From: a virus
DNA: 33,553 nucleotides
Virus record (IMG/VR): IMGVR_UViG_3300034198_015384
Span: 1 to 33,553 of that record
Strand: one strand, 5' to 3'
Numbering within the stretch: the first letter of the stretch is position 1; the number at the start of each line of letters is the position of its first letter. The translations under genes were made by a program, and so were the position numbers. Below, piece by piece: positions 2 to 3,451 of this stretch. The notes under the pieces are model-generated. The model saw nothing but the letters and a program-made list of their open reading frames with translations, was not told the DNA's origin and ran no database searches.

Positions 2-1510
2 TATACATTTACAGTAAAAGCTAACGCATCTCAAGGCTCAAGTGCAGCATCCTCTGCCTCTAGCTCTATTACAGCAACTACAGTTCCAAACGCTCCAGCA
101 GCACCTACTGCAACTGATTCTCCCTCAGGGCGTGCTTATAACAACGGCTCTGCATCTATTGCATTTACAGCCTCCGCAACTGGTGGTTCTGCAATCTCTT
201 CTTATACAGTTATTTCTTCTCCTGGTTCTTTCACAGGAACTGGTTCTTCTTCTCCTATTGTTGTAACAGGACAGCAATCTGCAACTGGTTACACATACAC
301 AGTTACAGCAACAAACGCCAATGGAACATCAAGTGCTTCTACTGCCTCTGCTTCTGTGACCGCTACTACTGTTCCTGCTGCTCCTACTATTGGAACCGCT
401 ACAGTTACCAACTCAACAACTGTTTCAATTCCGTTTACTGCAGGTGCTACTGGTGGTTCAGCAATAACCAGTTACACCGCAACATCAAGCCCATCAGTTT
501 CTCTTTCGGTATCAGGAACTTCAACTCCATTAACAGTTACAGGGACTTTTGCATCAGGTCAAGCCTATACTTTTACAATTTCAGCGGTAAATGCTAATGG
601 AACATCTGTTGCATCTTCAGCATCTAACTCAATTACTCCATATTCTCTTCCTACTGTTTCTGGTGGAACACTTACTTCAGATGCTACCTATTACTACCGT
701 ACGTTTACTTCAACCAACACGTTATCGGTTTCTAACGCAAGCATTACAGCTGATATTTTGACCATCGCTGGAGGTGCTGGCGGTTACGATGGTTGGTATT
801 TTAACAGTAAGGGCACAGTAACTTATATTAGAGGAAGTGGAGGAGGGGCGGGCGGCGTTGTGTACCAGGCTTCACAAACACTATCTACAGGAAGTTACAC
901 AGCCACAGTAGGTGGCGGAGGTGGGCGTAATAATCCTGGTAATAGTTCAACATTTGGCGCACTAACAACAGCACTACCAGGGGGTGGGCCTGGCAATTTT
1001 TCTAGTGGAACAAGCGGTACTTACGGTTCTGGTGGGGGCGGAATTCAGTTCTACCAAAATGGCACTTTTCTCCGCATGCCTACTAAAGGAACAAGCCCAC
1101 AAGGAAACGATGGCGGTTCGGCAGGGTCAGCAAGCGGCACTACTGGTGCAGGCGGCGGTGGTGCGGGAGCCGTAGGAGGAGATTCAAGCGGAGCATCTTC
1201 GGGTGGCGCAGGTGGCGTTGGTACATCTGCGTACTCCTCATGGGGTAGCGCAACAAGTACAGGTCACAATGTTAGTGGAACATATTATTACGCTGGTGGT
1301 GGTGGTGGGGCAAACAGTGCAAGTGGGGGTAACGGCGGCGGTGGTAGTGGTGGTTCACAGAACGTAGGAGGAACTGCTGCAGCCAATAACACAGGCGGTG
1401 GTGGTGGTGGTGGGGGACAACCTACCGCTGCTAATACTACAATGGCTGGAGGCGCTGGAGGTAATGGTGTTATTATTGTTCGTTATACTCGTTCTCAGGT
1501 AGGTGGATAA
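2..1510 (+). CDS. Tail fibre/adhesin with fibronectin-III repeats and glycine-rich C-terminus (5' end missing)
   Basis: The frame is open from the first bases, so the true start lies upstream of the window; the GTG at 356 is internal. About 502 residues are visible. The first ~210 are Ser/Thr/Ala-rich fibronectin-III repeats, with the recurring 'SGGSAI(S/T)SYT' strand, 'YTFTISAVNANGTS' and 'T(A)TTVP' linkers. From residue ~255 the protein becomes a glycine-rich segment with many GGGG runs, ending in 'NGVIIVRY', the hallmark of glycine-rich tips of phage tail fibres. Such proteins act outside the cell as receptor-binding or surface-attachment components of the virion. Its stop overlaps the next ATG (TAATG), so the two genes are probably co-translated. 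The repeats are divergent copies rather than exact DNA repeats. A non-fibre surface protein of the virion is the main alternative. Confidence 0.85.
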   Translation, partial: YTFTVKANASQGSSAASSASSSITATTVPNAPAAPTATDSPSGRAYNNGSASIAFTASATGGSAISSYTVISSPGSFTGTGSSSPIVVTGQQSATGYTYTVTATNANGTSSASTASASVTATTVPAAPTIGTATVTNSTTVSIPFTAGATGGSAITSYTATSSPSVSLSVSGTSTPLTVTGTFASGQAYTFTISAVNANGTSVASSASNSITPYSLPTVSGGTLTSDATYYYRTFTSTNTLSVSNASITADILTIAGGAGGYDGWYFNSKGTVTYIRGSGGGAGGVVYQASQTLSTGSYTATVGGGGGRNNPGNSSTFGALTTALPGGGPGNFSSGTSGTYGSGGGGIQFYQNGTFLRMPTKGTSPQGNDGGSAGSASGTTGAGGGGAGAVGGDSSGASSGGAGGVGTSAYSSWGSATSTGHNVSGTYYYAGGGGGANSASGGNGGGGSGGSQNVGGTAAANNTGGGGGGGGQPTAANTTMAGGAGGNGVIIVRYTRSQVGG

Positions 1511-1887
1511 TGTCACATTGGGCAGAAATTGATAATGATGGAATTGTTTTACGTGTAATTGTGGGCGACAATAGTGAGCCTGACGAAGGTTATCGCATTA
1601 TTACAGAAAATCTTGGTGGTACTTGGATTAAAACAAGTTACAATACTATAAAAGGAGTTCACACTTTAGGTGGTACGCCTTTTAGAGGAAACTATGCAAG
1701 CCCAGGCTATGTCTATGTTTCTGATATAGATATGTTTTTACCACAAAAACCTTTTCCTTCATGGGTTCCTGATTCTAAAAATTTTATTTGGAAAGCGCCT
1801 GTTGAAAAACCAGATTCTGGAATGTGGATGTGGGATGAGTCTGTAAGGAATTGGGTAGAGGGTGAATCGGGACCAATCGTTCAATAA
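1510..1887 (+). CDS. Small tail-fibre-associated phage protein
   Basis: A 125-residue protein starting 'MSHWAEIDNDGIVLRVIVGD', with a central 'GGTWIKTSYN' and a C-terminal half rich in Pro and Trp (KPFPSWVPDS, WKAPVEKPDSGMWMWDE). This layout resembles a conserved family of small proteins encoded beside tail fibres in marine and freshwater phages; I know the pattern but not an assigned biochemical role. The position directly after the fibre gene, with a one-base overlap, suggests a fibre tip, fibre chaperone or decoration protein. No membrane segment or signal peptide is seen. Confidence 0.7.
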   Translation: MSHWAEIDNDGIVLRVIVGDNSEPDEGYRIITENLGGTWIKTSYNTIKGVHTLGGTPFRGNYASPGYVYVSDIDMFLPQKPFPSWVPDSKNFIWKAPVEKPDSGMWMWDESVRNWVEGESGPIVQ

Positions 1888-2431
1888 AAACCGCTTAATT
1901 ACTTCGGGGTTTCCCAGAAGTGGTAATGTTTTTTTAAATTACTCTTTTAAATGCTTGTATTACCCAGATAAAGAAGTGTCGCCTCAAACTCATGTTACAA
2001 ACACATTTAAAGAAAATACTCATGTAATAACACCTATTAGGAATCCATTAGACTGTATTTCTTCTTGGAACCTATATCAAGAAAACTTTAACTATCCAAG
2101 AGACTTAAATAAAGACATTACTTATTATTTAAGGTTTTATTCTTATGTTTTAAATAACTTAACTAATATACTTTTACTTGACTTTAATGTTTTTAAAACA
2201 GACTTAGATTACATTACAAACAAAGTATTTAACTTTGTCAATATAAACCCTGTAAAAAAAGTTTCTTTAGAAGTAGTAAAGGATACAATGATAAAAGATA
2301 ATAAAGTAGATAATTTGCCTAGAAATAACCAATTATTTTTGACTGAAATAAAAAATACACTTCAAGAAATTCCTCAGATTACGGAGTGTTTAAACCTGTA
2401 CCTTGAATTAAAAGAAATGGAAAAAAAATGA
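1862..2431 (+). CDS. Sulfotransferase-like protein
   Basis: A 189-residue protein. Residues 16-22 read GFPRSGN, matching the 5'-phosphosulfate-binding loop of PAPS-dependent sulfotransferases (G-x-P-R-S-G-T/N). Residues 56-69 (ITPIRNPLDCISSW) match the 3'-phosphate-binding motif, with Arg60 and Ser67/Ser68. It would transfer sulfate from PAPS to a hydroxyl or amine on an unknown acceptor, possibly a surface glycan or a virion protein. The best start is GTG 1862, inside the end of the previous gene, with AAGGA about 11 bases upstream; there is no ATG before the P-loop. It is shorter than typical sulfotransferases (about 250-300 residues) and visibly more AT-rich than its neighbours, which suggests separate acquisition. 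It overlaps the APS-kinase gene by ATGA. The motifs support the fold well; the acceptor is unknown. Confidence 0.75.
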   Translation: MNRDQSFNKNRLITSGFPRSGNVFLNYSFKCLYYPDKEVSPQTHVTNTFKENTHVITPIRNPLDCISSWNLYQENFNYPRDLNKDITYYLRFYSYVLNNLTNILLLDFNVFKTDLDYITNKVFNFVNINPVKKVSLEVVKDTMIKDNKVDNLPRNNQLFLTEIKNTLQEIPQITECLNLYLELKEMEKK

Positions 2432-3180
2432 TTATTCAAATAATTGGTTTACCAGGCTCAGGAAAAACTACGTTAGCAAAAGTACTTGTTGACCGTATTA
2501 ATGCTGTCCATTTAAATGCTGATTATGTGCGCTCTACTATTAACTCTGATTTAGGCTTTAGCCCAGAAGACCGCATTGAGCATGCCCGTCGTATGGGTGA
2601 GATGGCTCGTATGCTTTCAGGTCAAGGACTTACAGTTGTAGTGGACTTTATCTGCCCAACACAAACTACACGCACCGTTTTTGGTAAGCCAGATATTTGT
2701 ATTTGGATGGACACTATTCAACAGGGGCGCTTTGAAGATACCAACAAGTTGTGGGAAGAACCTACAGAGTTTAACCACCGCTTTACCAGCTATGACAGTG
2801 AAACTCAAGCAAACCTTGTTATCGCTGTTAACGGTCTGCATGATTGGAAAACTCCAACTACTTTAATGCTAGGGCGCTATCAACCTTGGCATGAGGGGCA
2901 CCACGCCCTTTATGATGAGGCGCAAAAGCGCACTGGTCAGGTAATGCTAGGAGTAAGAAACACCCAAGGCACAAGTGAGAAAGACCCACTGTCTTTTGAT
3001 GAGGTCAAGCACTACATTAGTCAAGACCCACACATGAAAAACGCTATGGTGGTTAAGATGCCTAACATTACGAATATCGTCTACGGTAGAGACGTTGGAT
3101 ACAAGATTGAACAGGTGAAATTAGGTGATGAGATTGAAGCTATTAGCGCTACTCAAAAGCGTAAGGAGATGGGTATATGA
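2428..3180 (+). CDS. Bifunctional adenylylsulfate kinase / HxGH nucleotidyltransferase
   Basis: A 250-residue two-domain protein. Residues 1-~130 form an APS-kinase-like (CysC) domain: Walker A GLPGSGKTT at 7-15, then LNADYVR, DLGFSPEDRIEHARR and the 'VVVDFICPTQTTR' strand, all close to the CysC consensus. This domain would phosphorylate adenylylsulfate to PAPS. Residues ~143-250 form a nucleotidyltransferase: GRYQPWHEGHH (HEGH at 155-158) and C-terminal ISATQKRKEMG. That domain resembles NMN or cytidylyl transferases more than a classical ATP sulfurylase, so its substrate is uncertain; making APS from ATP and sulfate is an attractive but unproven possibility. It starts within the end of the sulfotransferase gene (ATGA), and a good AAGGAG lies at its own 3' end, serving the next frame. 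Confidence 0.85.
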   Translation: MIIQIIGLPGSGKTTLAKVLVDRINAVHLNADYVRSTINSDLGFSPEDRIEHARRMGEMARMLSGQGLTVVVDFICPTQTTRTVFGKPDICIWMDTIQQGRFEDTNKLWEEPTEFNHRFTSYDSETQANLVIAVNGLHDWKTPTTLMLGRYQPWHEGHHALYDEAQKRTGQVMLGVRNTQGTSEKDPLSFDEVKHYISQDPHMKNAMVVKMPNITNIVYGRDVGYKIEQVKLGDEIEAISATQKRKEMGI

Positions 3181-3233
3181 AGCAGGAAAAGGTATTGGAG
3201 ATGCTGAAGAAAGAATGTGGGCAACTCCTGTGA
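3177..3233 (+). CDS. Possible 18-residue coupling/leader peptide
   Basis: ATG 3177 overlaps the kinase stop (ATGA) and has a strong AAGGAG at 3163-3168 with 8-base spacing. It opens an 18-codon reading frame, MKQEKVLEMLKKECGQLL, ending at TGA 3231-3233. That stop overlaps a GTG (3230) in the frame of the DUF2061-like gene, so ribosomes finishing here could restart into it. Either this is a real translational-coupling mini-ORF or the strong ribosome site serves a differently placed start of the downstream gene. Too short to recognise. Confidence 0.3.
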   Translation: MKQEKVLEMLKKECGQLL

Positions 3234-3451
3234 GTAGGGCGCCAATTATGTGGGTTTCCCACGGACGTTCTTTTGTTAAAGCGGTAACTTGGCGGTTAAC
3301 GGGCACCTTTGATACATTTGTTTTAACTTACATTATTACTAAAAAGATTAAATTTGCCCTTGCTATCTCGGCAACTGAGGTTTTTACTAAGATTTTTCTT
3401 TACTACGTCCATGAGCGCATTTGGAATAAAGTTAACTGGGGCAGGGAATAG
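3215..3451 (+). CDS. DUF2061-like small membrane protein
   Basis: The core 'RSFVKAVTWRLTGTFDTF' followed by a hydrophobic stretch, 'ATEVFTKIFLYYVHERIWN' and a basic end is the signature of the DUF2061 family, small predicted inner-membrane proteins with two hydrophobic helices. Function is unknown; from memory, relatives occur in bacterial gene neighbourhoods that include sulfate-activation genes, which would fit the cassette here. The start is uncertain: ATG 3215 (78 residues) is given. GTG 3230 (coupled to a mini-ORF stop) and ATG 3248 both keep the whole domain, while GTG 3125/ATG 3128 would overlap the kinase gene deeply. It is followed by a 50-base gap containing a weak TATAGAT-like -10 element near 3478 but no convincing -35. 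Confidence 0.75.
   Translation: MWATPVSRAPIMWVSHGRSFVKAVTWRLTGTFDTFVLTYIITKKIKFALAISATEVFTKIFLYYVHERIWNKVNWGRE

Follow-up and report, generated by a model that had tools for sequence, protein, structure and literature searches.

In the rhizobial nodH-nodPQ system, a sulfotransferase gene adjoins the genes for sulfate activation (CysD and CysN/CysC), and NodH sulfates a secreted glycolipid. In human 3'-phosphoadenosine 5'-phosphosulfate (PAPS) synthetase 1 (PAPSS1), an adenosine 5'-phosphosulfate (APS) kinase is followed in the same chain by ATP sulfurylase, an HxGH nucleotidyltransferase. Sulfotransferase domains are also found in phages, among them OM43 and Synechococcus phages; PMC10580990 calls the function of phage sulfotransferases unclear, and PMC10829341 refers to sulfotransferases of viruses and to reports of nucleotide sulfation systems in phages. 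Here we analysed the virus record IMGVR_UViG_3300034198_015384, a stretch of 33,553 bases (the window), in which three adjoining genes encode a compact sulfotransferase (ST), a kinase-nucleotidyltransferase fusion (KNT) and a small predicted membrane protein of the DUF2061 family. Reading these three genes as a sulfation module of the phage is well supported. The joint explanation that we favour, and hold to be rather probable, is that KNT would make PAPS from APS, ST would sulfate a component of the tail fibre and DUF2061 would assist. A literature search, with preprints and many subscription papers outside its scope, gave no description of such a phage module, and its novelty is regarded as provisional.

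All three genes that the initial annotation had placed at 1862-3451 on the + strand were found, in the order fibre-type protein, p1510 (phrog_7759), ST, KNT and DUF2061. As in nodH-nodPQ, the sulfotransferase gene adjoins a putative sulfate-activation gene; unlike it, the phage cassette has no CysD or CysN, its kinase is KNT with a fused nucleotidyltransferase (NT) domain, and it lies beside a tail fibre and not beside nod genes. The partial accounts of the OM43 and Synechococcus phage sulfotransferases, in contrast, describe neither an activated-sulfate gene nor a tail fusion. The three genes had been described as joined by overlapping starts, which held for two of them: ST starts within the preceding gene, sharing its last 26 bases, and the first 4 bases of KNT are shared with the end of ST, while the DUF2061 start was revised to the ATG at 3215, which fits relatives better than the alternative GTG (Table 1) and leaves 34 bases after the KNT stop. 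A gap of this length is frequent among relatives. The cassette is not a chance assembly, as at least 586 IMG/VR stretches contain KNT relatives and a sibling contig of 61,850 bases matches the window across its entire length with 99.99% identity.

PAPS-dependent sulfotransferases share a 5'-phosphosulfate loop and a 3'-phosphate-binding Arg/Ser pair eight residues apart. Both motifs on which ST had been called sulfotransferase-like (GFPRSGN and RNPLDCISS) are present, and ST matched Pfam Sulfotransfer_1 barely over the cut-off (22.8 bits against 22). In an alignment of 18 sequences, that of the window included, G16, F17, R19, G21, H44, R60, P62 and F108 were invariant and S68, eight residues past R60, was kept in at least 90%, so that the loop residues and the R60/S68 pair are both accounted for. 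As a sequence search of the PDB gave no relative up to E 10, ST was placed by fold search. Its AlphaFold2 (AF2) model (pLDDT 92.5) had SULT7A1 as its best Foldseek match (E 2e-4), and all 50 matches listed by VIA were sulfotransferases (Z 9.6-11.6, 155-186 residues aligned), with STF9 the best (Z 11.6) and cytosolic SULTs, tyrosylprotein and heparan sulfotransferases among them. The model therefore falls inside the sulfotransferase fold and not outside it, the outcome that would have told against the initial annotation. Several of the OM43 and Synechococcus phage proteins match the ST model in BFVD; homologues in named phages were not found by tblastn up to E 1. ST is short, with relatives down to 156 amino acids (aa), and 1862-2431 is accordingly predicted, from its sequence and modelled fold, to encode a compact PAPS-type sulfotransferase.

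KNT, of 250 aa, combines the APS-kinase-type domain and the HxGH nucleotidyltransferase that had been proposed for it. Residues 2-83 matched the APS_kinase profile PF01583 with 61.4 bits against a cut-off of 21.1, and in the VIA comparison of its model the APS kinase chains (Z in Table 1) stood above gluconate kinase, which reached at most 15.2, and above the other kinases listed. Comparison of the predicted structure with CysC-type kinases thus places the kinase half in the APS-kinase fold, as had been supposed. The quartet D32-R35-F44-R49, which we take to contact APS, was invariant in 15 phage and bacterial members and has the 3/9/5 spacing of the aligned APS kinases. In the NT domain the HxGH and YGRxVGY motifs were invariant among members, and a match to CTP_transf_like began at residue 147 (E 9.5e-4, under the cut-off). 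The domain order is that of PAPSS1, and the VIA matches spanning both domains were PAPSS1 entries (1x6v, 1xjq and 1xnj); against 1x6v, 231 of the 250 residues were aligned with Z 16.6 and an rmsd of 16, a high value that, we would guess, reflects a different domain orientation. KNT differs from PAPSS1 in its small size and in an NT domain that the ATP-sulfurylase profile leaves unmatched in the window. The PDB fold matches for KNT were filled by kinases, and these carry no information on the NT domain. A role in defence or anti-defence was set aside, as PADLOC matched KNT three times, each time weakly (best 0.0013), and the other three proteins not at all. In other phages the kinase half stands alone, as a protein of about 139-154 aa (L144:4953-5417 and L194-L201), and in two phage stretches, L202 and L203, adjoining genes encode kinase and NT separately.

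Table 1. Positions in the window of the cassette genes, the KNT domains and the adjoining tail genes.
Feature	Position	Strand	Basis
ST, PAPS-type sulfotransferase (predicted), 189 aa, GTG start	1862..2431	+	Pfam 7e-5; conserved 5'-PSB loop, His44, Arg60, Ser68; AF2 model; VIA
KNT, APS-kinase-fold domain, residues 1-141	2428..2850	+	Pfam 1.3e-16; VIA Z 15.7-18.4; D32, R35, F44, R49 invariant
KNT, HxGH adenylyltransferase-like NT domain, residues 142-250	2851..3180	+	YGRxVGY, ISATxxR-type end
DUF2061 small predicted membrane protein, 78 aa	3215..3451	+	PF09834 1.7e-18; alternative GTG start 3125
Tail-fibre-type protein, open at left window end	2..1510	+	Fibronectin III repeats and C-terminal glycine-rich domain
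p1510, small protein adjoining fibre	1510..1887	+	phrog_7759 (function unknown) 1.7e-31; domain fused to ST in relatives

What KNT and DUF2061 do is best indicated by bacterial operons and fusions, as read from their sequences. A scan of bacterial genomes for KNT gave 15 loci, most of them from metagenome-assembled genomes (MAGs) or single-cell assemblies. In Rhizobium sp. BK376 (L102:5128-6795) one open reading frame (ORF) of 555 aa joins Sulfotransfer_2 (2.9e-7), APS_kinase (1.2e-14) and CTP_transf_like (1.7e-4). KNT itself lies, on a plasmid of Microvirga lotononidis (L251:4001-7770), between a NodH-like sulfotransferase (Sulfotransfer_3 7e-15) and CysD (PAPS_reduct 8e-56), and the CysN that follows CysD ends in a DUF2061 domain (1e-19) and has no APS_kinase match. 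This record is unannotated and the nod names are our assumption; its sulfotransferase matches that of Mesorhizobium with 1.6e-136. In Mesorhizobium the order nodI, permease, sulfotransferase, DUF2061, cysD and cysN, with DUF2061 between sulfotransferase and cysD, is annotated in four records and was seen in an unannotated fifth, the five being near-copies, to be taken as roughly a single event. In these the last domain of CysN is APS-kinase-like, and the stretch examined shows no separate KNT; KNT is thus present in M. lotononidis where the APS-kinase domain of CysN is missing.

On a Gemmatirosa plasmid DUF2061 matches one ORF together with a kinase-like stretch (1.8e-7), adjoining CysN- and CysD-like genes, and in Rhizobium sp. 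007 a relative of the KNT kinase has an annotated sulfotransferase at a distance of about 1.5 kb; another kinase relative, from Methylosinus, has no annotated sulfotransferase nearby. CysD- and CysN-like genes were found within about 5 kb in nine of ten records of a plasmid DUF2061 set, the Bradyrhizobium record being the one without, in a set queried with the M. lotononidis domain that leans to its relatives and includes its own record. Kinase and NT occur as separate close genes in SAR86 (L106 and L112) and gammaproteobacterial (L110 and L115) assemblies, with DUF2061 between the two in L110. At 1e-24 or better, the NT family occurred in three of 369 Gammaproteobacteria surveyed, the query's own genome included; a further five matches (5e-9 to 4e-12), in open frames of 358-416 aa, look to us like ordinary NMNATs. 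A KNT 70% identical to that of the window was also seen in a Chitinophagaceae MAG contig (L101), possibly a binned phage contig.

In phages, the best 80 of the IMG/VR stretches with KNT relatives were analysed and collapsed to 58 non-redundant near loci, which are often short (31 of them with 3 kb on both sides). In 49 of the 58, DUF2061 followed KNT at a distance of at most 600 bases, and 27 had an ST no more than 3 kb from KNT (14 of those 31). The density of ST was 0.201 per kb within 1 kb of KNT against 0.022 at 3-6 kb, a ratio of 9. Some of the ST detection seeds had been taken from KNT neighbourhoods, a bias toward near matches that tells against this first result, and the proximity was therefore retested with Pfam matches alone. 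In a sample of 45 records, 15 with any ST match and 10 with a near one, 12 of 21 STs lay no more than 3 kb from KNT, where uniform placement would give 3.55 (p about 1e-5), while 2-oxoglutarate (2OG) oxygenases, a control accessory family, gave no peak around KNT. The STs close to KNT span the Sulfotransfer_1, _2 and _3 types, which suggests that KNT and DUF2061 are retained as one transferase replaces another. When scanned from the ST side, 16 loci were obtained, eight of them in new contigs, and in three of these KNT adjoined ST, one (L092) being a copy of L046. With the Pelagibacteraceae KNT as query, no match was obtained among viruses. Fibre regions gather accessory genes, and oxygenases and other genes occupy the same slot, as they would if the three genes were unrelated neighbours in a variable region. 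The distance profile of ST with its 2OG control, the constancy of DUF2061 beside KNT and the fusions of ST to KNT and to a tail domain already disfavour that explanation, which we hold to be highly improbable.

The placing of the transferase beside the fibre recurred in related phages: 15 of the 27 near loci with ST, and 1 of the other 31, had fibre or p1510-type genes no further than 4 kb away. Moreover, ST was fused to a p1510-type small tail-gene domain in eight aligned proteins, six of them among the 58 near loci; phmmer detected p1510 similarity in six of the eight, and phrog_7759 matched both of the fusion proteins scanned (1e-22 and 8e-22). Because the ST gene follows the fibre and p1510 genes in the window and is fused to a p1510-type domain in relatives, we infer that a fibre component is the acceptor, and the tail fibre is the likely target of sulfation. 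The main rival to this target is a host glycan. The same chemistry could be directed at a host-surface glycan, or at another molecule such as a nucleotide, and so block other phages or change the cell, adjacency to the fibre then reflecting coupled evolution of receptor use. KNT relatives adjoin surface-polysaccharide genes, judged by eye, in four bacterial loci (L105, L108, L112 and L114), and DUF2061 and KNT share loci with NodH-like sulfotransferases, NodH itself sulfating a secreted glycolipid. Beyond its fibre genes the sibling contig has a methyltransferase gene and a weakly GH130-like one, and phage systems for nucleotide sulfation are mentioned in PMC10829341. The fusions of ST to a tail domain and its association with fibre genes speak against a host target, though both could also fit coupled evolution, and we consider such a target possible but, on balance, doubtful.

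DUF2061 is the third component. As proposed, a DUF2061-like membrane protein follows the kinase, its match to PF09834 scoring 67.2 bits against a cut-off of 23.1. The family is not tied to sulfate activation everywhere, since only one of the 12 loci found in 11 of 143 gammaproteobacterial genomes adjoins a Sat/CysC gene. In one genome (L246 in G198) a bifunctional Sat/CysC gene is followed after a few bases by DUF2061, among genes that by eye are AroQ-like, sugar-kinase-like and deacetylase-like; this is perhaps a natural-product cluster.

A number of observations weigh against the sulfation reading, and those on KNT itself may be taken first. The likeness of its sequence to APS kinases stops at about residue 84-94, and it scored 62.5 bits against the cut-off of 138.7 for the NCBIfam CysC equivalog TIGR00455, for which reason we file it as APS-kinase-like and not as CysC. 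NMNAT models matched the NT domains of all 15 members (E 0.05 or better), the window KNT scoring 18.5 bits against the NMNAT equivalog TIGR01527 with its cut-off of 181.2. The ATP sulfurylase profile PF01747 had no match in the window KNT, under HMMER filters that drop most matches above about 0.1, and matched just two of the 15 NT domains weakly (best 8.4e-4). By its sequence the NT domain is therefore classed as NMNAT-like and not recognisably as ATP sulfurylase. In M. lotononidis, CysD and CysN stand beside KNT, from which kinase activity alone would then be needed, and the retention of the NT domain where this pair is present weakens the idea that it must act as the sulfurylase. Two plasmids of Microvirga sp. 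VF16 carry the CysN-DUF2061 fusion with no KNT found there, the rest of the genome not having been searched for a kinase, which also speaks against a general rule that KNT stands in for the APS-kinase domain of CysN. None of 30 Sat/CysC loci examined had DUF2061 nearby. The claim that the phage makes PAPS and sulfates something stood in part: the ST and kinase folds, the non-random pairing of ST with KNT, the bacterial operons and fusions and the link of ST to tail genes speak for it, while KNT may or may not make PAPS from sulfate unaided, given the NMNAT-like NT domain.

A bolder possibility is that KNT is a one-chain mini PAPS synthase, its NMNAT-like domain being a new kind of ATP sulfurylase, so that the phage could sulfate its own fibre in hosts without sulfate activation of their own. 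It would fit the bacterial genomes with KNT relatives, most of them MAGs or single-cell assemblies and one (L101) possibly a phage contig, as PF01747 was unmatched in 15 of 15 and CysD in 12 of 15; we regard it as somewhat unlikely.

The remaining observations against the sulfation reading concern the distribution of KNT in phages. ST was absent within 3 kb, by the profiles used, in 31 of the 58 near loci, and five of the eight new ST-side contigs, in short records, had no APS kinase. A second scan, queried with the KNT of L099 (58% identical to that of the window), was collapsed to 43 distant loci, of which 24 had 3 kb on both sides. ST lay within 3 kb in two of the 43 (one of those 24), leaving 41 without it by the profiles used, and DUF2061 was found in two; across these 43 records Sulfotransfer_3 matched in none and Sulfotransfer_2 in two, Sulfotransfer_1 not having been run. 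Instead, genes named by eye as metK (24 of 43), apt (27 of 43) and MazG-like (14 of 43) lay within 3 kb of KNT (L146-L192), each of which was found in 0 of the 58 near loci. Homologues of KNT without the transferase, which the initial annotation had named as evidence against itself, are thus frequent, and the idea is tempered accordingly; yet 27 of the 58 near loci do have ST.

Named phages gave a similar picture. The PHROGs family phrog_10255, annotated 'kinase', includes the window KNT (residues 1-249, E 4.5e-72), and tblastn found it, with 37-41% identity and no less than 97% of the query aligned, in five phages, namely Stenotrophomonas phage DLP6, Xanthomonas phage AhaSv, Clavibacter phage 33 and phages Bhz60 and Suzuki. 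Unlike in the window, the profiles used detected neither ST nor DUF2061 in the neighbourhood of KNT in the four examined; some 0.7 kb upstream, Bhz60 has a match to Sulfotransfer_3 that stays below the threshold (E 0.0077), and DLP6 has a Sulfotransfer_2 gene 90 kb away. Also to be counted against the sulfation reading, KNT in Casjensviridae lies near MazG and cysteine dioxygenase genes and in one phage near NADAR: AhaSv, 33 and Bhz60 have cysteine dioxygenase, MazG and topoisomerase genes close to it, with NADAR annotated in Bhz60. Clavibacter phage 33 (L085) is recorded from Clavibacter, yet belongs to Casjensviridae, other members of which were seen from Xanthomonas and Stenotrophomonas, and its host label may deserve a check.

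With distant loci mostly devoid of ST and flanked by metK, apt and MazG-like genes, KNT is not always the partner of a sulfotransferase, and its role in distant phages may differ. In the window, too, KNT could make a different 3'-phosphorylated or adenylylated compound, in NAD-like or other nucleotide metabolism, with ST as independent cargo in the same place. The NMNAT matches in all 15 members, the neighbours of KNT in the named phages and distant loci, and the near absence of Sulfotransfer_2 and _3 from the second set agree with this. Against it stand the specificity of the ST-KNT proximity, which survived the Pfam-only test and was not shared by the control family, the APS-kinase fold with its invariant quartet, the Rhizobium fusion of ST to KNT, and the M. 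lotononidis locus in which KNT accompanies a NodH-like sulfotransferase, CysD and the CysN-DUF2061 fusion. Such a role at this locus we consider decidedly unlikely. Sulfate assimilation, in which PAPS would be reduced to sulfite and cysteine during infection and the kinase would be an auxiliary metabolic gene, would also suit metK near KNT in the distant loci, as well as the report in PMC11561045 that streamlined freshwater bacteria can be without assimilatory sulfate reduction. The partners here are transferases, however, and no PAPS reductase was noticed by eye among the ORFs of the window and the sibling contig, no profile having been run; assimilation is very improbable.

Under the sulfation reading, the fold, conserved residues and context of KNT suggest that it would phosphorylate APS to PAPS. 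The APS would be supplied by the host or, perhaps, by the NT domain from ATP and sulfate. ST would then pass the sulfuryl group to a component of the tail fibre, either the protein or a glycan on it. DUF2061 may assist at the membrane by holding the enzymes there or by affecting sulfate supply, which is speculation.

The fibre-type protein upstream of the cassette matched Pfam fn3 (2.3e-8) and Gly_rich_2 (5e-7) as well as phrog_2295 in PHROGs (1.6e-26), and the sibling contig holds a longer copy of 592 aa. Genes of tail-sheath and baseplate type, recognised by eye in the window and the sibling contig, lie to the right of the cassette. WhiB is an actinobacterial hallmark, and since the sibling contig encodes a WhiB gene (Pfam 1.7e-13), the host of the phage is probably an actinobacterium. 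On the strand opposite the fibre genes, the sibling contig (L250:4602-6689) also encodes a Methyltransf_24 protein (3e-12) and, by eye, a TPR-like one, together with a GH130-like match that is weak (0.0012); these are possibly further glycan-modifying genes.

The recurring unit of a sulfotransferase, an APS-kinase-like enzyme and DUF2061, in which the type of the transferase varies, offers a testable handle on the unexplained phage sulfotransferases. Two families that lacked one also gain a working assignment: within this clade the phrog_10255 'kinase' would be an activated-sulfate enzyme, and DUF2061 would be its partner in activating sulfate. If KNT were a mini PAPS synthase, virions would carry sulfate esters. 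Sulfated fibres, if they exist, would be a virion modification that we have not found described, and they could tune adsorption.

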